A stretch of 64,000 nucleotides of DNA from Fictibacillus nanhaiensis (GTDB lineage: Bacteria > Bacillota > Bacilli > Bacillales > Fictibacillaceae), in NCBI GenBank assembly GCA_016401345.1, contig JAEACG010000005.1, positions 124,001 through 188,000 of the forward strand, given 5' to 3'. The notes beneath the pieces were generated by a model. The model saw nothing but the letters and a program-made list of their open reading frames with translations. It did no database searches and had not been told where the DNA came from. Positions 11,957 to 53,659 of the stretch are shown in pieces; positions within the stretch are counted from its first letter, which is position 1; each line of letters begins with the position of its first letter. The position numbers and the translations under genes are program-made.

Positions 11957-12457
11957 TTAAGGATGACTGTTTGCTCCTGATCTGTTTTTTCTCATACCAG
12001 GTATCAGTAGTGCTAATAAAACAGCGACACCTAGAATAATTAATGCAGAATAAATCACCGAAATAGAAAATCCCGATTTATTAACATTCTGCTCTTCATC
12101 ATCTACAGAGTTAGAGAGAGTATCTTCACTTCCTGCGGAGAAAAGTCCCATCGTTTTAGCTTTTGATGCAGTACTATTATCCATCTTAGCAGATTGATCA
12201 AACAAACCACCTTGCAAATCTTCCAATTGGTTATCCGCCGTCTTCGTAAACGTTAAATCTTTCTGCTCTTCTGGAAGCCGCTCTTTCTTATCAGACAGTG
12301 ATTCCTCTTGAAGATATTCCGTACTCTCTTTAATCTGGTTTTCTTCATATAGATTTGGCGCTAAATCTCTAATGGTTGCACCTGCAAATACTGTTTCTGG
12401 TCCAATGCATATGAGAAACAGTATCATGACCGATAAAATCTTTTTAATATGCTTCAT
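11957..12457 (-). CDS. essA: Type VII secretion protein EssA (YueC)
   Basis: I place the start at the ATG 12455-12457, giving 166 residues that begin MKHIKKILSVMILFLICI, a signal-anchor-like helix; a longer frame adds 18 basic residues without support. After an acidic, Glu/Lys-rich extracellular region (about 25-125) comes a second membrane helix (SALIILGVAVLLALLIP). EssA is a small membrane component of the Firmicutes type VIIb machine and is required for substrate export. It is the last gene of the yuk-type operon, overlapping esaA by 14 bases, and is followed by a terminator. Size and position match B. subtilis yueC. Confidence 0.85.
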   Translation of the reverse strand: MKHIKKILSVMILFLICIGPETVFAGATIRDLAPNLYEENQIKESTEYLQEESLSDKKERLPEEQKDLTFTKTADNQLEDLQGGLFDQSAKMDNSTASKAKTMGLFSAGSEDTLSNSVDDEEQNVNKSGFSISVIYSALIILGVAVLLALLIPGMRKNRSGANSHP

Positions 12458-15218
12458 GCGTCTGATCCGTATTTGCTTTCTTAGATGGTTTTTTCCATAA
12501 TCGAACGGCATATGGAATTAATGACAATATAATTATCAATCCAACTAAGAAAAAGCAGCCTATTAAATAATCATTATCTGCACCGTATTGTATGGACAGA
12601 TATACAGCAGACATTGGATCTTCATATTGGAAGTTAGGTGCTGCTAGAGCAAGTAAAGGACTAACAAAGAATAAGATTAAACCTACACTAGCAATCCATC
12701 CAATGAATTGACCAACATTAAATGCTGAGCGCACTAAGGTTGATGCAGCTGTCAGCAATAATATGGTGAATACGGAAAACTGAATCGAATTTGTATTTGA
12801 TAATGAATAGATCTCTAATCCAAATAAACTAATAACAAGACCTACGATCAAGTTCAGCAATCCGAAAACAGAATTTTTCACTAAAAACGGAAGTGGGCTA
12901 AAGTAGTAACTAAAATAGCCAATTAGTAAACTACTAATTAAAATGACGATAAGAATTGCCACTGGCGGTACAGCTTTAACAGCTTGTGAATCTACCTGTG
13001 GATTATCTCCCGAAACTTTTAATGGATTAGCTAAGTAATCATATACGTACCCATTACTTTGCCCATCTAAGTAAGTATTGCCGAGTACATCAAATACATC
13101 ATCTCTTACCAACTTTGTAGATTCTACATTCGTTGTCCATTTTTCATTTAATACAGTTGCATCATTCTGAACACTGCTTACTTTTGTTTGTATATCACCC
13201 GTATAATTCACGACTGAATTTTGTCTTTCGCTTAACGAGTCCATTAAAGTATCGATCATACTGATCTCTTGGCTGATACTTTGCTGATTTGTTACTAACA
13301 GTGATCCTTCTCCAGCTTGTTCAGGTTCACTCATTTGCATCTCTTGTAACTTTACTAAAACAGTATTTGCACTTTCCTCAATAGAACCTATGTCAGTCAT
13401 TAATGCTTCCTGCTGGCCTTCAAGGGTAAATTGATAATTCTCTTTAAACTGAGAAAACGAATTCCCTAATCCTTTCATCTCCTCTTGTGTAGCTGGAAAT
13501 GAACCATTTACAGCATCCCATTTCTCTTGTTCTTCTCCATTTACACCCAGAGTCTGTTCTACTCTCTTATTAAATTCTTCATTAGCTAGTACAGTGTCCT
13601 TATTATCATTCTCAGCCCCCACTAAGGTCGTGTGATACTCAGAAAGTAAAGCATAATACGCAAGGGTACCATCGAAAGAGTTAATCGTAAGAGGGGTACT
13701 AAACAGACCTGTAAGACTATCGTTTAAATCTAATATTTCTTGTTCTTTTTTACGAATTTGATTATATAGATTGAAAAACTCATCATTCAAAGTGGTTGTG
13801 TTAATCACATTCTGATAGTTAGAAAGAAGTTGATCGTAAGCAACTTTTAACTTATCATACTCCTGCTTCCAACCAGATTGATTGGATTTTGACTCAATCT
13901 TTCCTTTGACAGCAATAACCCGGTTATTTAAGTTCGTTAATTCATTTATGGCTTTATTAACATTTTCTGGTTTAGGATCAGGGACAAGCTTTAACATCTC
14001 AATGATTTCTGAAATTTTTTGGCTAATTGATTGTAATTCGCCTAATTCTTCAGTAAAATCTGTTGGATTCGGCTGACCAGGAGTTCCAGGTGTTCCAGGT
14101 TGTCCACCACCACCAGGATTACCTCCACCTACTTGACCACGAGTTGCTTTTATCTTCTCTTCTAACGTAGCTAGCGTTGATTGTTTCTGCTGAAGGATAA
14201 AGGCATCTAATAAATCGTTGTGGAGGACCTTCATATCCGTTATTTGTCGTTCAACTTGTTTCATTCTTTCGTCGTTCAGACTAGCAATAGACTGATTATT
14301 TCCTTCCAGTAAATCGTTCATAGAATTCATACTCGATACAAAATAATCACCTTGTTCACGGAAGTACTGGTTGGTTTCAGCTTGTTTATTTACTAAACTT
14401 TCCTTACCTGCCTGAATAGATTGTAGATTTGTTTGCTGAGCTTCTCCTAATAGCAGCTGCTGCTCAGATTGATAGTTTTTATATTGTTCCACATAAGTAA
14501 CAAAGGAAGTTAAATTTTGTTCGAATTGCTTTAAATTATTACTTCCTTGCGCAGACGAATCGTCCGCTTGCTTCATACTTGATTGAAGCTGAACCAGCAT
14601 ATCTTTCTGCCTCTCCAGTTCGCCGGCAAGTTCACCGGAACTAGGCTTATAAAAACTAATCATCGTCGTTTGGAACTCAATCTCTTTCTCAAGTATACGG
14701 TCAAACTCTGTTCTGACCTTTTTCATGTCCTGAGAAACATAATTCCAATAAAGTGAAGTCATCTGTTTATTTAAGCGATTACCTGCATAATCCAATTCAC
14801 GTAATATTTTTTCTTTATTCACAGCCGTTAACTGCGATTGAACCGTATATTGAAAATCTGCTTTAGTCGGCTGCTTTTCATCATATGTCATAACATTAGA
14901 TGTAAAGTTTGAAGGAATATAAACTACAGCATCGTACTTCTTGTTTTTAAGACCGCTATCTGCTGCACTTCTGCTGATAACTGTATACTTATAGTCGGAT
15001 CCATCTTTTAGAATAGCTGGAACTTCCCTGCCTAACTGTAATTGATTCTCCTCTTCTTCTGAACCGAGATCTTCATTTACAATTGCTATGGAACGGGTAC
15101 CGTTAGCTTTTACTTCCATAGGATTCTCTCCCAAAAAGTTCATAAACAGTTGGGGGAATACTAGAATAATAGCCACAGCCAAAAGCATCTTTATCCTATA
15201 TTTCCATGAGTTCATCAT
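12444..15218 (-). CDS. esaA: Type VII secretion protein EsaA (YueB)
   Basis: This 924-residue protein has one N-terminal membrane helix (about residues 9-30), a long extracellular domain to about residue 745 rich in Gln/Asn coiled-coil, and roughly six C-terminal membrane helices. This is the EsaA/YueB plan; YueB is the surface receptor of phage SPP1 and part of the type VIIb translocon. The ectodomain includes a Gly/Pro-rich linker (near residues 365-390, GGGNPGGGGQPGTPGTPGQP). The ATG pair at 15213-15218 overlaps the essC stop (ATGA), indicating coupling. The ectodomain is expected to vary fast between strains. Confidence 0.9.
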   Translation of the reverse strand: MMNSWKYRIKMLLAVAIILVFPQLFMNFLGENPMEVKANGTRSIAIVNEDLGSEEEENQLQLGREVPAILKDGSDYKYTVISRSAADSGLKNKKYDAVVYIPSNFTSNVMTYDEKQPTKADFQYTVQSQLTAVNKEKILRELDYAGNRLNKQMTSLYWNYVSQDMKKVRTEFDRILEKEIEFQTTMISFYKPSSGELAGELERQKDMLVQLQSSMKQADDSSAQGSNNLKQFEQNLTSFVTYVEQYKNYQSEQQLLLGEAQQTNLQSIQAGKESLVNKQAETNQYFREQGDYFVSSMNSMNDLLEGNNQSIASLNDERMKQVERQITDMKVLHNDLLDAFILQQKQSTLATLEEKIKATRGQVGGGNPGGGGQPGTPGTPGQPNPTDFTEELGELQSISQKISEIIEMLKLVPDPKPENVNKAINELTNLNNRVIAVKGKIESKSNQSGWKQEYDKLKVAYDQLLSNYQNVINTTTLNDEFFNLYNQIRKKEQEILDLNDSLTGLFSTPLTINSFDGTLAYYALLSEYHTTLVGAENDNKDTVLANEEFNKRVEQTLGVNGEEQEKWDAVNGSFPATQEEMKGLGNSFSQFKENYQFTLEGQQEALMTDIGSIEESANTVLVKLQEMQMSEPEQAGEGSLLVTNQQSISQEISMIDTLMDSLSERQNSVVNYTGDIQTKVSSVQNDATVLNEKWTTNVESTKLVRDDVFDVLGNTYLDGQSNGYVYDYLANPLKVSGDNPQVDSQAVKAVPPVAILIVILISSLLIGYFSYYFSPLPFLVKNSVFGLLNLIVGLVISLFGLEIYSLSNTNSIQFSVFTILLLTAASTLVRSAFNVGQFIGWIASVGLILFFVSPLLALAAPNFQYEDPMSAVYLSIQYGADNDYLIGCFFLVGLIIILSLIPYAVRLWKKPSKKANTDQTHEAY

Positions 15219-18200
15219 GTGTATATCTTCCTTTCGATGACACTTAGAGGAATTTGAATTTTTGTTTCTTTTCCATTTTCTACGTAATAACCGTACCCTG
15301 CATGAACATCTTCTTCTTTCCTGTTATACGGTAAGGTAAACAGGCTTTGTTCTGATTTTTTCATCAAAACGAGTGCTTGACGTATTTGTTTGATCTCATT
15401 CGTAAACAAGTCAAAGCCTTTTGTGATTTCGTTGTTATTTCCTGAGACAATAACATTGAACCCAAGATGACTATAATTCTTCATGTACTTAGATAACCGA
15501 TCTTGAAGCAGACTGTCAGTAGATTGAAGGAATCTTGAATATCCATCAACAACAAAGTATAAAGGTGCGAAAGATTGATTCAATGTTGTACCATTGGATA
15601 AAGCTTCTACATATTCCCTCTCTCTTTGCTTAAGTACTTCTTCTGTTTGATCTAGCCACGCAGAAATATTTTCTTTCGTTTCGAGATACACGACTTTTTC
15701 CTCTCCAACATAATTCGAAAGTCCACGATCCACTGAATCGAACATACCTATCGTTTCTGTATCTTGAAGCAAAATGGTATTTAGCATAACCCTTAACGCA
15801 TTTGTTTTTCCTTTTTGCGTTTGTCCAACAATTAAACAATGCTTATTCTTAAGGAAGTTCATGTAGACTGGCTGCACAAATTCCTCATCAAGCCCAATCG
15901 GTATGATACCTGGTCTTTGTTTTCCTTCGGTATATTGCGTGAAGTTCACCATCGTAAGTTCAGATGGCAGCATTGGAATTGGTTCTGGACTCGCACTATC
16001 TTTGTACTTTTCAACAATTCCCATAATATCTTGTTTCATATTTTCTAATAGTTCATAATCGTCATCGCCACGGGTAGGCAGATAAACTTGTGAGAAATAT
16101 GCTTCTTCTCGCTTGATAATCGCTCTTCCTGGGATAGGTTCTAATGAAAAAGGCACCTTACCGAGAACAGTATACGATTCTGAATGATCCATTAAATAAT
16201 GAACAATTTTTGTTTTTAAGTTGTTCATGAGAGACTGTCTAATTGAATTGATTCTTGTAGCAGTAAAGATCATATAGATTCCTAGTGCTTGTCCATCACG
16301 TGCAAACTGAGTCATCTGCATTTCTAAGTCTGGCATCTCTTCTTTAACTAAATCAAAGTTATCAATCGTTAAAAAAATTACCGGCAATTTTTCCTGGTGA
16401 AGTTTGTTATACATTTTAATGCTGCTTACTTCACTCTTTTGGAATTGCTGCTTACGTTCTGCTATTTCATCTTTTAAAAATCTCATGAACTTTTCTATCT
16501 TTCTTTCTTCGTCCATCAGGAAGTAATCTGCTGTATGAGGAAGCTGTTTTAAAGGAAGAAGAGCCCCATTTCCAAAGTCAAAAAGATAATAGTGTAACTC
16601 TTCAGGACTTAACTTTGTTGCCATAGACATCAAAATTGTCATGACAGAATGCGACTTACCGTACCCAGAAGAACCAAAAATCCCAATGTTTCCATCATCC
16701 ATTAATTTGTATACATAAGGAGTTTGTGACTGTTTCTCAGGCTCGTCAACTAAACCTAAATAAATATCTGAGTCTTTTTCCTCAAACTCTATTTTATGTA
16801 TTAAACGATTGTTTAATGGAGGTAGCCAAGGACTGTTGAGCTTTTTAATCCCCATTTCTTTCTGCAGCTCTTCAATTCGGTCAACAATGACATCTATTTC
16901 TGCTTCTGCATCCTTTTTCTTTTTAGAATCTGATGATAGTCCAGATAAAGGTACCAGACCTAAATCTGTTACAAGCGCGACTTCATCTTCACTTACAACG
17001 TTCTCTTCCAAGTATGGTGCGCCACTCCAAGCCGATTGGAATAATTCGTATACTTCATTATTACCGACCTGAAGGTACCCTCTGCCCGTTACTGTTATGG
17101 ATGAAGCATCAGCATTTTTTAAAATTTCTCTACTGTCTGCGGCATCTTGAACCTTTAAAGCTATTTTAAATCTGGCGTTACTCCAAATCTGATCATCAAT
17201 GACTCCGCCTGGTTTTTGTGTGGCAAGTATGAGATGCACACCTAAACTTCTTCCGATCCTCGCCGCACTAACTAATTCCTTAATGAATTCTGGTTCTTCA
17301 CTTTTCAACTCAGCAAATTCATCAGAAATCAAAAACAAATGCGGCATAGGCTCGTTGGTTTCACCACGTTTATACAGATTTGTATATTCATTAATGTGGT
17401 TAACTTCGTATTTATCAAATAATCTCTGTCGTCTTTTTAACTCACTTTTGATTGAAGCAAGTGCCCTTGCAGTAAAGTTACGACTTCCCTCAATATTAGT
17501 AATCGTACCTAACAGATGGGGCATATTCTTAAAAGGTTGGGCCATTCCTCCACCTTTATAATCAATTAATAAAAAGGCAACTTCATGAGGATGGAAATTT
17601 ACAGCTAAAGATAAAATGTAAGTTTGTAAGAATTCACTTTTACCAGACCCCGTCGTTCCTGCTAAAAGACCATGTGGACCATGTGCTTTTTCGTGCAAAT
17701 TAAGTTCAACAAGATCTTCTTTACCTTTTAACCCTATTGGGACTGCAAGTGATTTAGAAGATTCTCTCGTTGTCCAATTGTGCTGAATCGGCAGATCAAC
17801 AACTTCTTTTGCGCCAAATAGCTCGAGGAATGAAACACTATTTGGTATTGAATTCGTCATTCCAACAAGGTGATTCAAGGTCCTTAAGGTTCTTGCATAT
17901 CTTTCATTTCCGTTTTGCTTATGTGCATCGAGTTTGAAGGGTATTTGTACAGCTTTTTTATCCTCGATTAATATGTCGCCTTCTGATTCATTAATATAGC
18001 GGACAAGAGTGTGAATATTATCAGTTAAACTTTCTTTTGTTTCTGCTGCAAATACTACCGAAATGCCTAAATGAGAGTATTCTCCTTCTAAATATTCAAG
18101 CAAAACATGTTCTGAAAGCAACTGTTGATCGAGTATGATAAAAACCAAGTGAGGGGAAAACCTCATTTTTTCTTTTTGACTACCAGTATCTAAATCACGT

Positions 18201-19699
18201 TCTCGAATCAACTCGTAAACAGAAGATAGTAACTGATCTCTCGTCTGCTCATTATAGATCAGACCTTTTGCATGAGAGTTAGGCAGCTGAAAATGCGGTA
18301 ACCATTTTACCCATTCCCATTGGCTGTAGTCTTTTTCATTAAAAATAAAAATTAACCTTACGTCATGATAGCTATGGAAAAATGCCAATTGGCCAATGAG
18401 TTGATGAAGTTCATTCTTCATCACCGATTCTTTCCCAATAAGACCCATTGCTCCATTTGATAAATTAACTGTTATCGGAACATTTTTAACTTCTTGGTAT
18501 ACTTTTTCCATCTTTTGTGATTGTTCTAGCAGATCATCAATTTCTCTATTCGCCATATCTCCACTGTTTAAAGATAATGTATAGCTTGAAGGAACGTTCC
18601 CTAACCCTATTCTTATTTGAAGAAGATCATGGCTTTCAAGTGTTCTTTCCCAGATTCGATCAGATATTTCTTCTGTGTAATATTTCATTTGTTCAAACGA
18701 TGGATAATGATACTGAAGCACGTTCCTCTGCTTTTCCGCTAACTCTTCAAGTTCTTTTCTCTTGTTATCGAGATACAAGTTGTAAACTTTCTGGCGTTTA
18801 ATTTTTCTTTTCTTGAAGTTTCCACGTTCTTTAAAATACTGAACCGAAGAAGTAACAAGTGTAGTAGCAAACATCACCATTGAAACAATAATAAAAATCC
18901 CTCTAGGTTGTATGATTGCAACAATACCCATAACAAGCATCATTAATAGAGGAGGCATGATAATTAACCAAAGACCTCTATTGGGGTTTTCACCCTCTTG
19001 TGATGGAAATGACAGCGTTACTTTATCTTTGGGTAGATCAAAAACCATTCGTGGTGTTCTTCGATAATTAGGATATTTCTTGCTCATTTCTGAAACGGGC
19101 TTCTTTGCTGCTGGGAGTTTGGTTATGAAGTCTTTTCTACTAATAACCTGAATCAAGTCTGTATCCAATAACTTAATCGACATAAATGGCCAAAATAGAA
19201 GATCCCCTACCTCAAATTTAGTAGGACCAGCTATCTTATGACCGTTCAGATAAAGCTCTCCTTTATTCGGTGAGATCATCCATCTCTCTCTAGCTTTTAT
19301 TAGAACGAATGAAACTTCTTCAGAACCAAAGCTCTCTATAGATTGATAAGTGAGATCAGCCTCCGAGCCTGTTGCAGAAAACGTGTACTCTTTTTCAAAG
19401 CCAATATAATAAGACTGTTGAACCTCACTATCATTTGTAAGATAGATTCGTAATGTTTGATCTCCATCTGATACCTGAAATAGGTTATCTACCATTACAT
19501 GACCGATGACTTTATCATCTTGGTAAACCTCTATCTTTTCCTTATCTCGACTGATCGTCAAAATACCTTTGCTAAATGGAAAGTTTCTAACCGTAACGGA
19601 ATCTGAAATGTTCGGACCTATCGTTATAGATTTAAGAGACTCGTTATCCAGGTTGATCTGCTGATAGTTCCTATTAAAAAACACCCATAGTGTGCTCAT
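15215..19699 (-). CDS. essC: Type VII secretion motor ATPase EssC (YukB)
   Basis: The 1494-residue FtsK/SpoIIIE-type protein has tandem FHA-like domains (about 1-190), two membrane helices (about 228-270), and three ATPase domains. Walker A motifs are GTTGSGKS, GSSGYGKS and GQTQKGKT; matching Walker B strands are FLLIDYKGGG, VIFLTIDNFD and LYFVVDG. It drives substrate translocation across the membrane. The third P-loop and B strand are divergent, as in known EssC proteins where domain 3 is catalytically weak. Start ATG at 19699 has AAAGGGGG close upstream. It is encoded 12 bp after essB. B. subtilis YukB is of the same length. Confidence 0.95.
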   Translation of the reverse strand: MSTLWVFFNRNYQQINLDNESLKSITIGPNISDSVTVRNFPFSKGILTISRDKEKIEVYQDDKVIGHVMVDNLFQVSDGDQTLRIYLTNDSEVQQSYYIGFEKEYTFSATGSEADLTYQSIESFGSEEVSFVLIKARERWMISPNKGELYLNGHKIAGPTKFEVGDLLFWPFMSIKLLDTDLIQVISRKDFITKLPAAKKPVSEMSKKYPNYRRTPRMVFDLPKDKVTLSFPSQEGENPNRGLWLIIMPPLLMMLVMGIVAIIQPRGIFIIVSMVMFATTLVTSSVQYFKERGNFKKRKIKRQKVYNLYLDNKRKELEELAEKQRNVLQYHYPSFEQMKYYTEEISDRIWERTLESHDLLQIRIGLGNVPSSYTLSLNSGDMANREIDDLLEQSQKMEKVYQEVKNVPITVNLSNGAMGLIGKESVMKNELHQLIGQLAFFHSYHDVRLIFIFNEKDYSQWEWVKWLPHFQLPNSHAKGLIYNEQTRDQLLSSVYELIRERDLDTGSQKEKMRFSPHLVFIILDQQLLSEHVLLEYLEGEYSHLGISVVFAAETKESLTDNIHTLVRYINESEGDILIEDKKAVQIPFKLDAHKQNGNERYARTLRTLNHLVGMTNSIPNSVSFLELFGAKEVVDLPIQHNWTTRESSKSLAVPIGLKGKEDLVELNLHEKAHGPHGLLAGTTGSGKSEFLQTYILSLAVNFHPHEVAFLLIDYKGGGMAQPFKNMPHLLGTITNIEGSRNFTARALASIKSELKRRQRLFDKYEVNHINEYTNLYKRGETNEPMPHLFLISDEFAELKSEEPEFIKELVSAARIGRSLGVHLILATQKPGGVIDDQIWSNARFKIALKVQDAADSREILKNADASSITVTGRGYLQVGNNEVYELFQSAWSGAPYLEENVVSEDEVALVTDLGLVPLSGLSSDSKKKKDAEAEIDVIVDRIEELQKEMGIKKLNSPWLPPLNNRLIHKIEFEEKDSDIYLGLVDEPEKQSQTPYVYKLMDDGNIGIFGSSGYGKSHSVMTILMSMATKLSPEELHYYLFDFGNGALLPLKQLPHTADYFLMDEERKIEKFMRFLKDEIAERKQQFQKSEVSSIKMYNKLHQEKLPVIFLTIDNFDLVKEEMPDLEMQMTQFARDGQALGIYMIFTATRINSIRQSLMNNLKTKIVHYLMDHSESYTVLGKVPFSLEPIPGRAIIKREEAYFSQVYLPTRGDDDYELLENMKQDIMGIVEKYKDSASPEPIPMLPSELTMVNFTQYTEGKQRPGIIPIGLDEEFVQPVYMNFLKNKHCLIVGQTQKGKTNALRVMLNTILLQDTETIGMFDSVDRGLSNYVGEEKVVYLETKENISAWLDQTEEVLKQREREYVEALSNGTTLNQSFAPLYFVVDGYSRFLQSTDSLLQDRLSKYMKNYSHLGFNVIVSGNNNEITKGFDLFTNEIKQIRQALVLMKKSEQSLFTLPYNRKEEDVHAGYGYYVENGKETKIQIPLSVIERKIYT

Positions 19700-19711
19700 A
19701 CTTCACCCCCT

Positions 19712-21025
19712 TTAATTCGCATTGGCCGGTTTCGGTGGTGATGCTGGCTTTTGCTTTTCAGCAGCTGCTGCTTCTTCCTTAGCCTTTTGCTCCATTGCTT
19801 CTTGTTCTTTTTGCTTTTCTTCTTCAGCTTTTCTCTCTTCTTCTTTAAGTCGCTCTTCTTCTTCTTTAATTGCTTCTTGCTCTTCGAGATACTCATCTAT
19901 TTCTGCTTGTACTTCTTTAATTTTTTGCTGTTTTTCCTCACTGCTTAATTTATCATCAGACTTTAATTCTTCACGATATTTAATAAGTGCGAACATAATA
20001 AGATCCTTGTCTTCTAACGAACGTGCAATATCGAGGGCTTCCTTCGCATTACCTCTTCCGATATGTATCCAATATTGAAAATAGAGAGGTTCTGATTGTA
20101 GGGAAACGGTGTTTTGAATATTTTCCTTTTGTTCTTCAGTAAGTGATTCATTGATTATGTAAGATGATGCTAACTGGTATTGAACCACATTTGGCATATC
20201 CTCGACATCATAATCGGACATCACTTCAACGACTTCACTGTATTCCTTACCTAGAAAATGTTCGTTGCTGCTAACAAATGCTTCTTGTCTAGGCTGTAAA
20301 AAAAACAGGGAATAAATCGTATATATAATGGCTGGGATGAAACATATCAATAATCCCAAGGAAGCATATTGTGTAATCTTCCATTTCTTTTGTGGAATAT
20401 TTAGCATCAATTTATCTTTTTCATCTATGTCATTTAATTTTTTTTGTATGAAAAGTAACAGTCCATTCAAATCGTCAACTTCTAATACCTCTTTAGCAGT
20501 GGTTGATAATTCAATGGTTTCATGAAGCTTTAAGTAATCATGAAAGGAATGTTTACCGTCCACTAAGAAAACAATCGTAGCTTTAAGCTCTTTCCAAACT
20601 CTTTCATGCTCTGCTTCGTAAGGAGGAATACTTTCTTTCACTCCATAATGTAGGAAAGCTGGTGATAGACTTTGATCAAATACTATATTTTCAGGACATA
20701 CCACCAAATGTAAACGATTCAATGTATGTTCTTTTACTTTTTTTGTGAGTTGAAACGCAAACATCCATTTACTTCTATCATTTTGGTTTGTTAATTCAGG
20801 AAAATACCGGTAATTAGAATGGGGGAGGATGGTAATCTTAAGCTCGTTTTCATCAACGATAATGGATCGTTGGATATCTGTATCCAATTCCTTTAATAGT
20901 TCTACTTCAATAACGTCATCTAGCTTAATTTTTTCTTTTTGGAATGCAAAAGTAATAGAATCCACATCTCTACTAATCTGGGATTCTAAGATTTGTTCCA
21001 AATATGTTTTGTTTTTTTCGGTCAT
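19712..21025 (-). CDS. essB: Type VII secretion protein EssB (YukC)
   Basis: The 437-residue protein has an N-terminal pseudokinase-like cytoplasmic domain (1-215), one membrane helix (about 220-242, ASLGLLICFIPAIIYTIYSL), and an extracellular helical domain ending in a very charged Glu/Lys coiled coil (about 360-420) and a PPKPANAN tail. EssB/YukC is an essential membrane component of the type VIIb translocon that contacts EsaA and EssC. GAGGGGGT precedes the ATG. It lies between esaB and essC with gaps of only 13 and 12 bp. Confidence 0.92.
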   Translation of the reverse strand: MTEKNKTYLEQILESQISRDVDSITFAFQKEKIKLDDVIEVELLKELDTDIQRSIIVDENELKITILPHSNYRYFPELTNQNDRSKWMFAFQLTKKVKEHTLNRLHLVVCPENIVFDQSLSPAFLHYGVKESIPPYEAEHERVWKELKATIVFLVDGKHSFHDYLKLHETIELSTTAKEVLEVDDLNGLLLFIQKKLNDIDEKDKLMLNIPQKKWKITQYASLGLLICFIPAIIYTIYSLFFLQPRQEAFVSSNEHFLGKEYSEVVEVMSDYDVEDMPNVVQYQLASSYIINESLTEEQKENIQNTVSLQSEPLYFQYWIHIGRGNAKEALDIARSLEDKDLIMFALIKYREELKSDDKLSSEEKQQKIKEVQAEIDEYLEEQEAIKEEEERLKEEERKAEEEKQKEQEAMEQKAKEEAAAAEKQKPASPPKPANAN

Positions 21026-30575: not shown

Positions 30576-32702
30576 TTATCTTAACTCTCTTAGAAATCCA
30601 AAATCTTTTAAATACTCTACTGAAATTGGCAAGTTCCATTGTGTTCCTCCTCCTGGTGCACCGAATGCAGAAGCTATTCGTCCTCCAAAAGTCCTGAAAT
30701 TTTCAATATCATATCCATATGCTTTAGCATCCATGTAAAACTCTTCTTTTAATAGCTGATCTGGCCAATTTTCAATTGTACTTTTCAACTCACTAAAGTC
30801 TTTTATTACCTCATATTGATGATATGCATAAGGATTTTCGATATATGGCAATGCTCTCTGTTCAAAGGAATAGCTTTTCCCATTATTTATTGGAGAGGTA
30901 TAAGTTCCATACTCACTTCCATACCTATCAATCTTGTCTCCAACTTTTGGCCCTATTATTTGTTTAATTGCATTACCAAGTTCATCTACTTCATATCCTT
31001 CAGCAGGTGGCCATTTAACTTTCCCAGTATCACTATCAATAATTTTGACATCAGCCAAAACTTGTACGTCTGTTTTTATACCTGCATTGAGTGCTTTATA
31101 AAAAACTTGGATATTAGCTTGAACCTTATCCCTAGGTGTAAGACTAGATTTATTAATATCATTGATTAATGCCTTTACACTTGTGTCATCTAAGGTAGAA
31201 AAATCTATATTCTTTAAAATATCATCTATTTTATTACTACCTGTCCCTGTTTTCTTAGAAGACTGTTGCACCGATTCTCTTACTGTCTTCGTTTCAGAAA
31301 TCACTCTTCTTACTGTATGACCGGTTGATGTTACTAGCTTCTCCACTCGAAAATTTATTGGCATTCTTGTATTTCCAACATTTGTACGAATGGTTTTAAA
31401 AAGATTCTGCGCTTTGCCTACTTGCTGCTTAGTATATTGAGTACTATACGGAAACTTATTTTGCAGCACCTTACCAATATCCATACGATCCAACGCATAC
31501 CCAGCACTACCCACACCTGCAATTGCAAACGCATTAAATAAACTTTGATTTCTTTGCTCTTCTGACAACTCATTTCCGAACATATCTTTACCTGTAAAAT
31601 ACTCGCCGAATCCATTTGCAGATACAAGGCCATAGATACCGTATTCTGCTTTTTGAAGTCTCGTAAGACCTTGAGCTGTTTTATATGAATCGAGCATGTG
31701 ATCGGCAGTATTTGCGGCTTTTACTGTTTTATAAATAGCGGATCCGCCCTTAACCGCTCTTCCAGCCCAACCGATGACCGGTATAAATCCAGCTGCCGCC
31801 ATAGCACCTGCTGTAATACGTTCGGCTTCCGAAAGCTTTCTTCCTGTCACTGGGTCAACACCTGTTGATGCACGGATGGAATCATAATACCCTGTGACTT
31901 CTCCCGTAAAGGTAGAGACCGTATCCCATGCTTTTTCATACCATGGACGGTTCTCCATCTCTTCCATTTCTTTTTGTATCTCTCTTGCTTCTTTTTGTTC
32001 TTTCTTAAAGTTTATGTACTTATCGTTCTCATCTTTTACTTTAGTGATAGCTTTGTATACTTCGCTGTTATGGTAAGCTTCCGCATTAAAATATAAAGGT
32101 GAAATGGTTTCACCTTTACGTGTCGCTTCCATTAATTGAGCAAATAGTGCATAAATATATTGTTCTTGTCCTTGAGACACAGCATATTCATCGGTTAATC
32201 TTTGATCTAACTCATTAACCTTTTCAACCGTTTCTGACCGACGCTTTTCAGCTTTATCCATTTGGTCTTCAAAAGCATCCTTTGAGAACACAGAAAGAGA
32301 GACCAGATCACTGATGTCGCTAAAAATGCGTTGTAGTTCATCCTGTTGATCTGCAACTATATCTTTTGCCATTCTCCCCGCTCGTTCTACGTTCTCTTCT
32401 AAAAATGGAACCTGAACAACCGTATCCCCCGAAAGATCAGCTTCCTCTGTATCACCTGGAATTCCTTTAAAAAATAACAAATTTATATCAATCAATTGTA
32501 TCCATGCATCTACTACATCAATTTGTCCCTGAAAAAAGCCTTTAATGGCTTCAGCTCCTTTACCTTGAAAGTCGCTGTCTTCTGCAATCTTAGCAAGCTC
32601 TGTTCTTAAGGATTGGAACTGCTCTCTTAGTCTTTCATATTGATGGGCTCTTTCTCCAGTTGCAGCATTTAAAGTTGAAGCTTCAAGTACATGACTTCCC
32701 AT
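30576..32702 (-). CDS. LXG polymorphic toxin with C-terminal TNT (NAD+ glycohydrolase-type) domain
   Basis: With the start at the ATG 32700-32702 (GAGGG upstream; the longer frame to 32747 has no usable ribosome site) the protein has 708 residues. Residues 1-220 are an LXG domain (GSHVLEASTLNAATGERAHQY), the type VII export region. A middle part has a pre-toxin-like segment (DSIRASTGVDPVTGRKLS) and GFIPVIGW. Residues 590-708 match the TNT fold: DRYG (R593), QRALP (R616), H628 and PGGGTQW (Q688), the positions used by tuberculosis necrotizing toxin and TelB to hydrolyse NAD+. The operon supplies two helical partners and an immunity candidate. Confidence 0.88.
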   Translation of the reverse strand: MGSHVLEASTLNAATGERAHQYERLREQFQSLRTELAKIAEDSDFQGKGAEAIKGFFQGQIDVVDAWIQLIDINLLFFKGIPGDTEEADLSGDTVVQVPFLEENVERAGRMAKDIVADQQDELQRIFSDISDLVSLSVFSKDAFEDQMDKAEKRRSETVEKVNELDQRLTDEYAVSQGQEQYIYALFAQLMEATRKGETISPLYFNAEAYHNSEVYKAITKVKDENDKYINFKKEQKEAREIQKEMEEMENRPWYEKAWDTVSTFTGEVTGYYDSIRASTGVDPVTGRKLSEAERITAGAMAAAGFIPVIGWAGRAVKGGSAIYKTVKAANTADHMLDSYKTAQGLTRLQKAEYGIYGLVSANGFGEYFTGKDMFGNELSEEQRNQSLFNAFAIAGVGSAGYALDRMDIGKVLQNKFPYSTQYTKQQVGKAQNLFKTIRTNVGNTRMPINFRVEKLVTSTGHTVRRVISETKTVRESVQQSSKKTGTGSNKIDDILKNIDFSTLDDTSVKALINDINKSSLTPRDKVQANIQVFYKALNAGIKTDVQVLADVKIIDSDTGKVKWPPAEGYEVDELGNAIKQIIGPKVGDKIDRYGSEYGTYTSPINNGKSYSFEQRALPYIENPYAYHQYEVIKDFSELKSTIENWPDQLLKEEFYMDAKAYGYDIENFRTFGGRIASAFGAPGGGTQWNLPISVEYLKDFGFLRELR

Positions 32703-32721
32703 TTTCCAGATGCCCTCTTTT

Positions 32722-32991
32722 CTATTTATTTCTAAAGATCGCTTCATCCTGATTCTTTAGAATCTCAATATTTGCTTTTGTATCCTCGATATTTTTTGTT
32801 ACCACATTCATATACTCTAGTATCATCTTATGAAGATTTTCTTCACGCTGCAGAAATTCCTTCGTAAACTGAAGTTCGTTCTTTCCAAGTGCCCCAGCTG
32901 AAGGGCTTGGAAGAGTTAGAGCGTCAAGCGCTTTCTGTGTTTCACCCAATTGTTGAGTAACATCATGAAATTGTAGCTTTATGGTCTGCAT
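32722..32991 (-). CDS. Small helical LXG-partner protein (YwqI/DUF5344-like)
   Basis: This 89-residue, Cys-free, all-helical protein has the look of a WXG100-related partner: two amphipathic helices around a TLPSPSAGALGKNELQF turn. AAAGGAGG lies eight bases before the ATG, which overlaps the previous stop (TAATG). The order partner-partner-LXG toxin matches ywqH-ywqI-ywqJ of B. subtilis and the Lap1/Lap2 chaperone pairs that form a targeting complex with LXG domains. It probably binds the LXG helices for export. Confidence 0.78.
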   Translation of the reverse strand: MQTIKLQFHDVTQQLGETQKALDALTLPSPSAGALGKNELQFTKEFLQREENLHKMILEYMNVVTKNIEDTKANIEILKNQDEAIFRNK

Positions 32992-33419
32992 TAAAAGATC
33001 CTCCTTTTCAGATCATCAATTCGACTTCCTAGTTCCTCAAGAGCATCTTCTCCCTTGTCTAGCAATTGACTCGCCTCATTTGCTAAGCCGCCAATAACAC
33101 TCAAAGATTCTCTCTCTACTTTTAATAGACCAATTACAACACCAATCTTCTGTTGGTAATCCTCATAGTCGTCGTTTACTATTTCTTGCATAATCTTATA
33201 TGCTTCTTCTCTCGATTGATCAAAGGCGTTCGCTCGATTTCCCATCCACAAACTACCAAGCTCTGGTTCTAGTATCTTGCGAATTTCTTGCATACTCGTG
33301 TTCTGTTCTTGATTAATCTCACCTTTAGCTCGCTGCAGCCTAGAGATTTTTTCATCTATGGCCGCGGTGCGACTTGATAAGCTACTATAGATAGCACTTA
33401 AATCATCTGAAAATCCCAC
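32991..33419 (-). CDS. DUF5082/YwqH-like helical LXG-partner protein
   Basis: The GTG at 33417-33419 is the better start (142 residues), because a TTG five codons upstream lies within the GGGAGG ribosome site itself. The protein is helical and coiled-coil rich (IDEKISRLQRAKGEINQEQ), with GSLWMGNRANAFDQSREEA at about residue 60, a WxG-like turn, and a C-terminal ALEELGSRIDDLKRRI helix. B. subtilis YwqH (about 140 residues) is the nearest model. It is the first gene of the toxin operon and likely part of the secretion complex. Confidence 0.8.
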   Translation of the reverse strand: MGFSDDLSAIYSSLSSRTAAIDEKISRLQRAKGEINQEQNTSMQEIRKILEPELGSLWMGNRANAFDQSREEAYKIMQEIVNDDYEDYQQKIGVVIGLLKVERESLSVIGGLANEASQLLDKGEDALEELGSRIDDLKRRIF

Positions 33420-33585
33420 ACCTATACCTCCCAAATAGTCCAGTTACTTATTCATCAGGTCAAAATCCCTATCATTATATAAAAATACCATTAATAGTTA
33501 TAATTTTCCACGTAAAATATACCCTCTTTTCTCCTAAAATAAACCAGTTAAAATAGTACTTTATTCACCTTATTTTATCTCCAAC

Positions 33586-50989: not shown

Positions 50990-51641
50990 TTATATCTCCT
51001 GCCTTTTTTATGGATTGGGAGTCATTTTGAGATTTAATTGAGTACTTCGCTACATCGATCTCATAATGTAGGTCATCTATATCATTTGACAATACTTGGT
51101 ATAAATCCTTTTCGATCTGAACGATCAGTTCGTCTAGAGTTCTTCTCGTTTCTACTAATGAATGTGTCAATTCCCTCGATTTTCTTGGCTGTGAGGATAG
51201 AAACATATATTTTTCGGTGAGCTCTACGGCTGAATCCAAATGAGAAAAATAGAACTGTTCTGCTTGATAAAAACGTCTTGGCTCTTTTTGGGTTAAACTC
51301 TGGATCTTTCTAACTACACGTACAAGATCCGCTCTTTGTTTTAAAGTTGGCAGGTCACGGACTGAAAACATTGCTTTTTGTAGTCTGTAAATTTTAGGTT
51401 TTGCTTCATCTAAATTTTTTCTGATGTATTTATACTCTCTTCTAGATAAGTGATGTTCACTTAGAAATCTCTGTTTTTGAAGAAGTCCTGTTGCTGTGTA
51501 TGCGGCAGCTCCTCCGGCTACTGCGATTCCTGACGACAAAAGGTAGGTCTGGTCATACCCGATAATACTTGCCAGCCATACTCCTACTGAAGCTGGGATA
51601 GCAACAAACATGCGGATAAAAAAAGCTAAAAATCCGTTCAT
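50976..51641 (-). CDS. xpaC: XpaC-family membrane protein
   Basis: The 221-residue protein has two N-terminal membrane helices (about 5-55) and a helical cytoplasmic part with [18 protein letters not shown]. It is named for activity on 5-bromo-4-chloroindolyl phosphate, which is not a proven role. First gene of the xpaC-yaaN operon, with AGGAG upstream of the ATG. It probably anchors or works with YaaN at the membrane; this is inferred from the conserved pairing. Confidence 0.88.
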
Positions 51642-51859
51642 TGTAATCGACTCCTGACATAAACTCTTTACTATTCATACGGATGTAACGGTTTCTGAGT
51701 TTCGTTTAAATAAAAAAAGTTCATCTATACTATGTTTCTATTATTACCTTATCGAAACCTTCCTAAAATCACCATGGCTTTAAGAAGTAATGTGTTCTAG
51801 GACTTGAGGCGTATATATAAAAACTCATAATGGAGCTGACTATTCAAATTTAGGATATA

Positions 51860-51908
51860 AACAAAACAAAGACGCTGAATATGCATACATCACATAAACA
51901 GCGCCTTT
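51860..51908 (-). terminator. Strand-specific terminator of the candidate non-coding RNA
   Basis: On the minus strand AAAGGCGCTG pairs with CAGCGTCTTT over all ten positions (one G-U), followed by TTTGTTTTGTTT. On the plus strand the same position is an A-C mismatch and there is no T tail, so it is built for a minus-strand transcript arriving from 52 kb. Confidence 0.65.
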
Positions 51909-52328
51909 AGCTTAAAATCACTTTATTCACTTAAACGTTCTTTCCTTTCTTACTAATACACAAATGCTAGTTATTGTCCCTAACTAGACTTCAATTAATT
52001 GTTCGTTCAATCAATTGCCTTGCATTAGATCTTATTTTTCCTCTACTTCTGGTAAATTCCCACACGCCCACATGCTGCGAAAATAGTTTTCACCGGCTAT
52101 TTCCATCTGCAACACGATCTTAGCATGCTTCGCTCACATACGTCATTGGAATCATCCTCTTTCGTTATGTGTATTTGCGCGTTCCCACATACCCACACAT
52201 CTCGAAATCAGTTTTCACTGGCTGATCTCTAACTGGATGTGATTTGATATGTTTCGCTTCCTTATTTCATTGGAATCACGCCTTCCTTTATTTGAAGTAG
52301 TGTTTCTTTGTTAACTACATATTAACCC
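51865..52328 (-). ncRNA. Candidate structured non-coding RNA with two tandem repeat units
   Basis: A promoter-like TTGATT-16-TAAAAT (52336-52363), two ~125-nt units (A near 52166-52290, B near 52040-52165), stem-loops at 51993-52016 and 51967-51987, and a minus-strand terminator define a possible ~460-nt RNA. Unit A has inner hairpin ATCAG-loop-CTGAT (52207-52226) and outer stem CACATC/GATGTG (52196-52241); unit B has AATAG-loop-CTATT (52082-52101) and CGTGTTGC/GCAGCATG (52071-52116). The inner loop CC(A/G)GTGAAAA is conserved while the stems covary. B also has hairpin GTATGT-GAGCGAA-GCATGC (52123-52141). No convincing protein frame crosses it. Confidence 0.5.
52040..52290 (-). repeat. Tandem ~125-bp imperfect direct repeat (units A and B)
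   Basis: Two copies are aligned by TTCCCACA(C/T) at 52057 and 52182 (offset 125) and by CATTGGAATCA at 52144 and 52268 (offset 124). Identity is moderate and concentrated in loops and unit ends. A related single unit lies at 7294-7405 in the opposite orientation. Confidence 0.7.
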
Positions 52329-52341
52329 ATTCTAAATTTTA

Positions 52342-52555
52342 TTTAAATATTCAGAATAATCAATATTATGTGATTTAGGGTGTATTTATTCCACTTTTTT
52401 AAGCCATACTCCTTCATTCGTAAAATTTCTTTTTATTTCATCATATTTCAACAATTTAAATAATAAATGTGTTTTTTAGGCTTTCACCTATTCCAACTTC
52501 CCTACATAACATGCATGTAGAAACACAACTACAAAAAAGAGGAGTGTTTTGAACC
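52342..52555. other. AT-rich non-coding gap before the tandem P-loop ATPase gene
   Basis: About 210 bp with no plausible frame. It should hold the promoter of the plus-strand ATPase gene and the minus-strand candidate RNA promoter (52336-52363). Confidence 0.5.
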
Positions 52556-53659
52556 TTGACTGGAAAAATTCTGAATTATTATGCTGGCGGCAATACAGCT
52601 AGAGGTTTTCACAACTTATTTCCATCAAATCTTAATGGTCTTGATCGCCTCTTTATTTTAAAAGGCGGACCTGGTACTGGTAAGTCGACACTCATGAAAG
52701 CGGTCGGGGAAAAGTGGAACAACGAAGGCTACGATATCGAATACATCCATTGCGCTTCAGACAACGGTTCGATTGATGGTGTAATTATCAGAGAACTCGG
52801 AATCGGAATTGTCGATGGCACTTCTCCACATGTTATTGAACCAAAAGCTCCAGGAGCGATTGAGGAATATGTAAATTTAGGTGAAGCGTGGGATTCTAAA
52901 AAGCTGGCCAACAAAAAGGCGGAAATTTTAAAGATTACTGATTCCATTTCTGCTGATTATCAAAAAGCATATGCAACTTTCCATGAAGCGCTCCTTATCC
53001 ATGATGAATGGGAAGAAATTTATATTATGAACATGAATTATGAAAAAGCAAACGACCTTACGGATGAACTGATGCATCAATTTTTTTCTAAGAAAGTAAA
53101 TAAAGCCGCGAACGTTTATCACCGTTTTCTAGGCGCAGCTACCCCTAAAGGTGCTGTCGATTTTGTGCCTAACTTAACTGAAGGTCTGGAAAAGAGATAT
53201 TTTATTAAGGGAAGACCTGGGTCTGGAAAATCAACTTTATTAAAAAAGCTGGCCGCAAATGCAGAAGCTTCAGGTTATGATGTTGAGATTTATCATTGTG
53301 GGTTCGATCCCAACAGCTTGGATATGGTGATCGTGAGAGAGCTCGGCTTTGCGATTTTTGACAGTACAGCACCTCATGAGTATTTCCCTGAACGTAAAGG
53401 TGACTCCATCATAGACATGTATGAAAAGACGATCAAAAAGGGTACGGATGAAAAATTCTTTGATAATTTAAAAGAGATCAGTGGGCGTTATTCAAAAAAG
53501 ATGAAAGAAGCGATCGGATATCTAGCAGACGCAAAAAGTAAGCACGATGATTTAGAAAAGATTTATATTGCCGCGATGAATTTTTCAAGAATCGACAAAA
53601 TTCATAAGAAGATTGATCTAGAAATTGAAAAACTAACCGCTGCACAACAACAAAAATAA
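52556..53659 (+). CDS. Tandem-duplicated P-loop ATPase (PRK06851-like)
   Basis: The 367-residue protein is two similar halves. Each has a Walker A loop: GGPGTGKSTLMKA near residue 38 and GRPGSGKSTLLKK near 223. Each is followed by an EYIHCASDNGSIDGVIIREL or EIYHCGFDPNSLDMVIVREL block and a helical EIYIMNMNY or KIYIAAMNF segment. The close internal match shows gene duplication. It is cytoplasmic, with no signal. Family function is unknown to me. The TTG start has GAGGAG 11 bases upstream. It is a single-gene unit ended by a terminator. Confidence 0.8.
   Translation: MTGKILNYYAGGNTARGFHNLFPSNLNGLDRLFILKGGPGTGKSTLMKAVGEKWNNEGYDIEYIHCASDNGSIDGVIIRELGIGIVDGTSPHVIEPKAPGAIEEYVNLGEAWDSKKLANKKAEILKITDSISADYQKAYATFHEALLIHDEWEEIYIMNMNYEKANDLTDELMHQFFSKKVNKAANVYHRFLGAATPKGAVDFVPNLTEGLEKRYFIKGRPGSGKSTLLKKLAANAEASGYDVEIYHCGFDPNSLDMVIVRELGFAIFDSTAPHEYFPERKGDSIIDMYEKTIKKGTDEKFFDNLKEISGRYSKKMKEAIGYLADAKSKHDDLEKIYIAAMNFSRIDKIHKKIDLEIEKLTAAQQQK

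Follow-up and report, generated by a model that had tools for sequence, protein, structure and literature searches.

The lambda bar minigenes are two-codon minigenes, the yrzI/S1025 transcript is a candidate for cleavage on the ribosome by Rae1, a ribosome-associated nuclease, and the bcr-type repeats of the B. cereus group are structured repeats of Bacillales that occur as several dispersed copies per genome. According to the consulted part of a study of axe-txe, a two-codon minigene raises txe expression, possibly through protection of the mRNA from endonuclease attack (PMC8708949). The small ORFs yrzI and S1024-S1026 are named as candidates for Rae1 degradation in the portion of PMC10632193 consulted here, and RNA-seq of P. 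riograndensis, as excerpted from the report, gave 27 small RNAs from intergenic regions, almost none of them with a known function (PMC5670726).

The window analysed here, a 64,000-nucleotide stretch of Fictibacillus DNA, carries on its minus strand, at 52363-51860, a member of a Bacilli RNA family that has no Rfam entry and is built from hairpin modules in tandem (1 to 12 seen), followed by a short ORF and, at the end, an intrinsic terminator. We are close to certain that this anatomy is that of a structured RNA family with selected micro-ORFs. The family unites two things that are usually separate: an RNA fold that covaries, and a series of translation starts from which almost no peptide would result.

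Layout, promoter and neighbours of the RNA gene

A sequence-only reading of this DNA had set a structured RNA at these coordinates and on this strand, and both were found to be right when the sequence was re-read. The inner hairpins that it named (ATCAG/CTGAT and AATAG/CTATT around CC(A/G)GTGAAAA) are present, as are its outer stems, two downstream stem-loops and terminator; its account of the helices in the modules stood, but it had missed their outermost helix, TTCC/GGAA, and the micro-ORFs. The features are as follows.

52344..52356, minus strand: conserved promoter box TTCTGAATATTTA, overlapping the upstream side of the -35 (conservation among loci)
52319..52347, minus strand: sigma-A-type promoter, TTTAAA (52347-52342), 17 nt, TAATAT (52324-52319) (sequence reading and fixed spacing to the box)
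52170..52289, minus strand: module A, three stacked helices and an outer TTCC/GGAA (R1 match in the own genome, 115.3 bits, E 2.1e-29)
52281..52288, minus strand: Shine-Dalgarno-like AAGGAAGG of module A (sequence reading)
52262..52270, minus strand: micro-ORF A, ATG AAA TAA (MK*) (recurrent start-stop class)
52045..52165, minus strand: module B (R1 match in the own genome, 113.0 bits, E 9.4e-29)
52156..52163, minus strand: Shine-Dalgarno-like GAAAGAGG of module B (sequence reading)
52120..52146, minus strand: micro-ORF B, MTYVSEAC* (module ORF scan)
51992..52017, minus strand: spacer stem-loop CAATTGATTG...CAATTAATTG (sequence and fold prediction)
51967..51987, minus strand: spacer stem-loop CTAGTTA...TAACTAG (sequence and fold prediction)
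51943..51948, minus strand: Shine-Dalgarno-like AAAGGA of the terminal ORF (sequence reading)
51907..51930, minus strand: terminal 7-codon ORF, GTG...TAA (MNKVILS*), with its stop at the terminator base (same arrangement in relatives)
51861..51909, minus strand: intrinsic terminator hairpin and T-rich tail (-20.5 kcal/mol)
52556-53659, plus strand: ORF upstream of the RNA gene, directed away from it (window ORFs)
Start at 51641, minus strand, the same strand as the RNA gene: xpaC-like gene by reading of its translation, about 220 nt past the terminator

The promoter had earlier been placed at TTGATT-16-TAAAAT; conservation better supports TTTAAA-17-TAATAT together with the box TTCTGAATATTTA. 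With up to 3 mismatches allowed, the box was found at 62 of 84 distinct loci, compared with 20 of 1680 shuffles, and at 11 of 17 later, more divergent loci. When TGAATATTT or a near form was sought 19-21 nt before TANNNT, the spacing was exactly 20 nt in 38/38 distinct matching loci, and 19 loci gave no match in this strict-form search of box and spacing. The 22 of 84 loci that lacked the box at up to 3 mismatches were Paenibacillus- or Saccharibacillus-type in 18 cases, and they included L068 and L088, which are pieces beginning inside an array. The core of the box, TTCTGAA, varies between families and resembles what we take to be the CodY motif. At L117, L118 and L119, which are box-less and Paenibacillus-type, a leader with a possible stem, CATCACCA...AGGTGAT, was seen upstream of the first module; the stem of L119 reads CAACACCA...AGGTGTT, a paired change, and the leader is perhaps a 5' protecting hairpin.

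Among 14 loci with a downstream ORF of at least 90 codons, that ORF was convergent in 8 and ran on the same strand in 5, with 1 unclear, and by eye the neighbouring genes differed between genera. As the neighbours differ in this way and the downstream ORF is mostly convergent, the minus strand of 52363-51860 most likely holds an RNA gene that stands on its own, about 450 nt long and with a sigma-A-type promoter. These data bear equally on the reading of the RNA as a leader (attenuator or riboswitch) of the gene downstream, here the xpaC-like gene. A leader would suit the same-strand gene that begins about 220 nt past the terminator in the window, and structured uORF motifs of leader type are described in the consulted part of PMC8632094, but a conserved same-strand downstream gene, as would mark a riboswitch or attenuator, was not found in the 14 loci, and the convergent and genus-variable downstream ORFs weaken this candidate to the point that we hold it to be highly improbable. 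The description of the RNA as a dedicated one, made in the sequence-only reading, is borne out by covariation, by a conserved promoter box and a terminator of its own, by the lack of a neighbour common to the genera and by the lack of an Rfam match.

Elsewhere in the window, the genes at 12444-21025 read, by translation, like a type VII secretion cluster (an EssC-like 1494-aa protein and its neighbours), and a WXG/LXG-type pair was seen at 30576-33434 by reading of translations. In L018, an F. aquaticus-type locus, GGTACCGTACCCC-like repeats flank the RNA gene on both sides (about 1410-1425 and 2045-2115).

Distribution of the family and covariation of its modules

Rfam 15 gave zero matches to the window at gathering cut-offs, and zero at E <= 5 in 51500-52700. 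By DNA search, matches were found in 27 of 60 genomes, counting the own one; each of the 17 other genomes of the genus was matched, and the locus of one relative, G013, was 99% identical to that of the window; in g3, a genus of the window's own family, 0 of 8 genomes matched. The pattern GATTCCAATGA-N8-AGCGAA was present in 32 of 397 genomes of the order, compared with 0 for a backward control pattern. When the pattern was tightened by one step, 49 named stretches of the GTDB collection matched, including Fictibacillus, Rossellomorea, Metabacillus, Peribacillus, Paenibacillus and Saccharibacillus, and 48 of these were confirmed by the covariance model R1; the one that was not, a Gemmatimonadetes match (L086), was set down to chance.

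In covariance searches over 40 genomes stricter filters were applied, by which weak matches are lost. R1 matched 21 genomes in a set of 398 from Bacilli, spread over 10 of 145 genera. With R2, matches were found in 101 of 197 sampled genomes (10 of 19 genera) of the family f50, which from loci resembling the named Paenibacillus loci is taken as Paenibacillaceae, and in 53 of 397 sampled genomes (18 of 135 genera) of the window's order; the covariance-model search of related genomes that had been put forward as a check on the sequence-only reading did, in this way, return structured homologues. Two genomes matched in the order search, G085 (7%) and G403 (8%), are flagged as contaminated and their lineages are less sure, and in the family f58 the 2 matched genomes of 11 were both 8% contaminated, with 0 of 9 clean genomes matched. 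Across the phylum 5 of 398 genomes matched R2, four of them Bacilli and one weak; the sole match outside the class, G1187 (E = 7.5e-5, genome 63% complete), gave the same weak match when re-examined and had no start, promoter box or terminal ORF. The genus g47, presumably Bacillus in the narrow sense from its yrzI loci, was absent from the matched genomes of the R1 Bacilli, R2 order and R2 phylum searches, and four of its genomes were seen to be unmatched by R1.

A covariance search of the whole own genome at E <= 1 returned modules A and B and, beyond these, two places with E values of 0.62 and 0.77; a unit at 7.3 kb, earlier suggested as a homologue, was absent from these results and is rejected as one. 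A likeness to mobile bcr-type elements, also suggested earlier, found no backing, with one locus in the own genome, the locus present in all 17 other genus genomes searched, and no phage or plasmid match. The phage and plasmid collections gave no match at E <= 1e-5, and a phage or plasmid origin was rejected on this ground, the lone viral-contig match (L157) holding no module by eye and being attributed to chance. Many genomes had one or two modules, and arrays reached 9 (L205) and 12 modules (L206). The repeats of L206 (595-1562) and L205 (328-1085) are near-alike, which looks like recent tandem expansion.

The minus-strand RNA was predicted to fold at -128.6 kcal/mol (z = -5.1), with 0 of 100 shuffles as low, and the plus strand gave z = -1.8, with 7 of 100 shuffles as low. 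Covariation was assessed on two alignments, A2, comprising 46 modules aligned by plain MAFFT, and A3, comprising 82 modules fitted to the covariance model. In A2, RNAalifold predicted 21 pairs, 18 of them with compensating changes; with the outer helix P1 added by hand there were 25 pairs and 174 double-change cells, against a shuffled mean of 51 (reached by 0 of 500 shuffles), and P1 itself had zero both-side changes. In A3, in which the fitting favours the structure, both-side changes were present in 24 of 25 pairs, including 3 of the 4 P1 pairs, 94.7% of pair cells were paired, and there were 361 double-change cells against 104 in shuffles (0 of 500 as high) and against a maximum of 47 when partners were slid. 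The covariation first seen between the two units of the window thus holds in relatives.

P2 varies freely with pairing kept (CATGC/GCGTG, CATAT/GTATG, CGTAC/GTACG), and is rich in G-U pairs in A3; as these could not be formed by the opposite strand, they fit the minus strand as the RNA. Little variation was found in A2 in GTNAGCGAAG, which precedes P2, and in CCNGTGAAAA, the inner loop, both of them unpaired. The inner hairpin is missing in several lineages, in which P1, the internal loop and P2 remain.

Apparent start sites in the modules and before the terminator

Micro-ORFs were scanned in 122 distinct modules, kept from the covariance-confirmed pattern matches and a few pattern loci. In all 122 an NTG stood no more than 3 bases from the aligned ATG of ATTCCAATG, in a scan that sought just this and could favour a start. 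After two modules had been set aside (L034, wrongly placed, and L130, weak), the start codons of the remaining 120 were ATG in 108, TTG in 9 and GTG in 3, and a Shine-Dalgarno-like stretch lay upstream of most module starts by eye.

Two classes of micro-ORF were distinguished: class I, mostly M-x-x-V-S-E-A-(C/Y), with the stop immediate or later and a total of 8 to 25 codons (8 codons in 23 of 43 distinct), and class II, ATG-NNN-stop, with two cases one codon longer. Of the 76 distinct 5' parts, 31 had a stop triplet at codon 3, compared with 0-2 for each of the offsets 0-2 and 4-6; the stop triplets at offsets 7 and 8 (22 and 33) are frequent because the GTNAGC motif itself holds out-of-frame stop triplets. 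Class I was in frame with AGCGAAG in 43/43, whereas class II had 19 in frame and 12 out (12/31), with 2 more lacking a findable motif (Fisher p = 6e-6 for frame kept against lost by class), and the triplet before AGC was GTN, with T second, in 37 of 43 ORF-bearing modules, where all four third bases occurred, and in 17 of 31 post-stop modules (p = 0.004), p values that overstate independence as the module rows are related sequences. The frame rule is contradicted by L182, in which the frame is open despite a motif shifted by one base, and L206 and L220 have the peptide MENRKAKA instead of the VSEA type. The commonest module order was II-I, in 13 of 35 arrays with at least two retained modules, some of which may be shortened by dropped duplicates, and last modules were often of the 8-codon class.

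Both R1 and R2 exclude the terminal part of the RNA, so the terminal ORF was not selected for in the search. Of the 69 distinct loci in which a terminator was detected (6 loci without one being left out), 64 had an ORF of 6-9 codons that bears a Shine-Dalgarno-like sequence and ends between -6 and +9 nt from the hairpin, compared with 172 of 3450 shuffled flanks (5%), and of the 5 misses at least L181 has the ORF by eye. It was of 7 codons in 51 of the 64, with a choice rule that leaned to about 7 where several fitted. Such an ORF of 6-9 codons was also present in 12 of 15 terminator-bearing loci among the later 17, which were drawn from the more divergent R2 matches in the order and phylum. 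The terminal peptides were MNKVILS in the window, MNSxxxx in many Paenibacillus-type loci and MLEESIV-like elsewhere; because they differ between lineages, it is length and place that are kept, not sequence.

These counts bear on whether the RNA is purely non-coding, its Shine-Dalgarno-like stretches, starts and frames being by-products of a conserved RNA sequence. Such an RNA would accommodate the constraint on AGCGAAG and ATTCCAATGA as RNA, the 3 of 9 modules of L205 that have no start codon (GAAG replaces GATG) and the 19 of 31 early-stop modules that are in frame too. It fits poorly with the ATG, GTG or TTG present at the start position, with a frame kept in 43/43 modules without an early stop but lost in 12/31 with one, with stops at codon 3 and not at the surrounding offsets, and with a separate terminal ORF of narrow length, and we give it very little credence. 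The strict sense of "non-coding", the term under which the locus was first noted, is probably wrong in view of the conserved apparent initiation sites and the 6-9-codon ORF abutting the terminator. Comparison of the loci shows the helices, the conservation of the unpaired GTNAGCGAAG and CCNGTGAAAA, and selection that keeps a start codon with a short frame in the majority of modules and ahead of the terminator; the data show selection on RNA structure and on short frames within one molecule.

Proposed function and comparison with known systems

As the peptides vary, down to two codons, while the starts, their spacing and the terminal length persist, ribosome loading would seem to be the point. 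In the explanation that we consider the best overall, and to which we give an even chance, the RNA would toggle between ribosome-bound and folded states, and the initiating ribosome, not the peptide, would be its working part. P1 (TTCC/GGAA) is predicted between the Shine-Dalgarno sequence and the start codon, and the 8-codon frame would run into P2, which should make ribosome loading and module folding mutually exclusive. The cost of opening the initiation region (24 of 120 modules) did not differ clearly from that of shuffles (10.5 vs 11.0 kcal/mol), so that occlusion by P1 is argued from geometry only. The RNA would pass from an open form, occupied by ribosomes, to a folded one and back; when folded it would present its conserved loops to a partner, either protein or RNA, and the toggling would signal or buffer how many initiating ribosomes are available. 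The switch between folded and ribosome-bound forms as the mechanism is offered tentatively, at somewhat less than an even chance.

The recurring ATG-NNN-stop class (31/76 distinct), the two arrays of 9 and 12 modules and the conserved promoter box would also suit a translation brake, in which an array of start-stop minigenes ties up initiating ribosomes or releases peptidyl-tRNA when the promoter is on, and for which the lambda bar minigenes are a precedent. We consider such a brake unlikely, as covariation and conserved loops would be superfluous to it, many genomes have one or two modules, and the last modules are often of the 8-codon class. Somewhat less doubtful, and still improbable in our estimate, is a ribosome-protected sponge, in which the micro-ORFs would keep ribosomes on the RNA as a guard against nucleases and the modules would bind a protein or mRNAs in trans through CCNGTGAAAA and GTNAGCGAAG. 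The repeated module, its very conserved unpaired nucleotides and the variable copy number speak for a sponge, as does the axe-txe minigene, which raises txe expression possibly by mRNA protection in the consulted part of PMC8708949, but the retention of frame in the 8-codon class and the terminal ORF of 6-9 codons that ends at the terminator would be left unexplained.

On the preferred reading, that of an RNA toggled by initiating ribosomes, members of the family may be widespread Bacilli RNA devices for which ribosome initiation is itself the input or output, and which sense or throttle translation without a protein product; we judge this equally apt to prove right or wrong. The same balance of probability attaches to the make-up of such devices, which would comprise tandem covarying modules, most with a start site of 2 or about 8 codons, a closing ORF of 6-9 codons at the terminator and usually one promoter element. 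If ribosome loading is the function, this RNA family, unmatched in Rfam and found in over half of the sampled Paenibacillus-family genomes (101/197) and in 18/135 genera of the window's order, would open a direct way to study how translation is gauged or restrained in these bacteria.

Among known systems, a Shine-Dalgarno-like sequence followed by start-codon-stop, the mark of a two-codon minigene, is present here (module A, ATG AAA TAA; 31/76 distinct modules) and is shared with the mg2 minigene of axe-txe, the effect of which comes via translation and not via its product, according to the consulted part of PMC8708949. In axe-txe, by contrast, a single minigene stands ahead of a gene affected in cis, and the abstract mentions no covarying tandem module, stand-alone RNA or terminator ORF (PMC8708949).

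The B. subtilis yrzI / S1024-S1026 transcript likewise has several very small ORFs in the source as consulted, a likeness by layout only; the yrzI loci have different peptides and no GATTCCAATGA-AGCGAAG module (12 loci, by eye), the four g47 genomes with yrzI gave no R1 match, and the own genome gave no TIGR02413 (yrzI-like) match. Kinship with the yrzI/S1025 operon was rejected from 12 of 15 TIGR02413 places read, which had other peptides and no module (B. subtilis itself lay outside the genomes searched with R1 and R2). In 8 of the 12 loci yrzI is preceded by another small frame, which has a conserved SLWKS(S/P)CPS stretch and a strong Shine-Dalgarno-like site (L142, L143, L146-L148, L150, L151 and L153, at about 1230-1400 on the sense strand).

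The bcr-type repeats are dispersed copies, whereas the RNA gene here is one locus with two tandem modules and no sign of dispersal. The odc1 and uORFC-6-1 (hflX) motifs likewise place a short ORF in a covarying structure, in the consulted part of PMC8632094, but they precede particular genes, whereas the RNA of the Fictibacillus window is stand-alone, tandem and without a fixed neighbour (PMC8632094); of the two marks of a structured uORF, the short ORF inside a covarying structure is found here and the position upstream of a fixed main ORF is not. A literature search, of mostly non-subscription papers and including the consulted parts of PMC10632193, PMC8632094 and PMC5670726, found no description of the modules or peptides, an absence that is not proven. 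As far as the sources were compared, none of the nearest known kinds has a free-standing RNA in which covarying modules that carry start sites are repeated in tandem.
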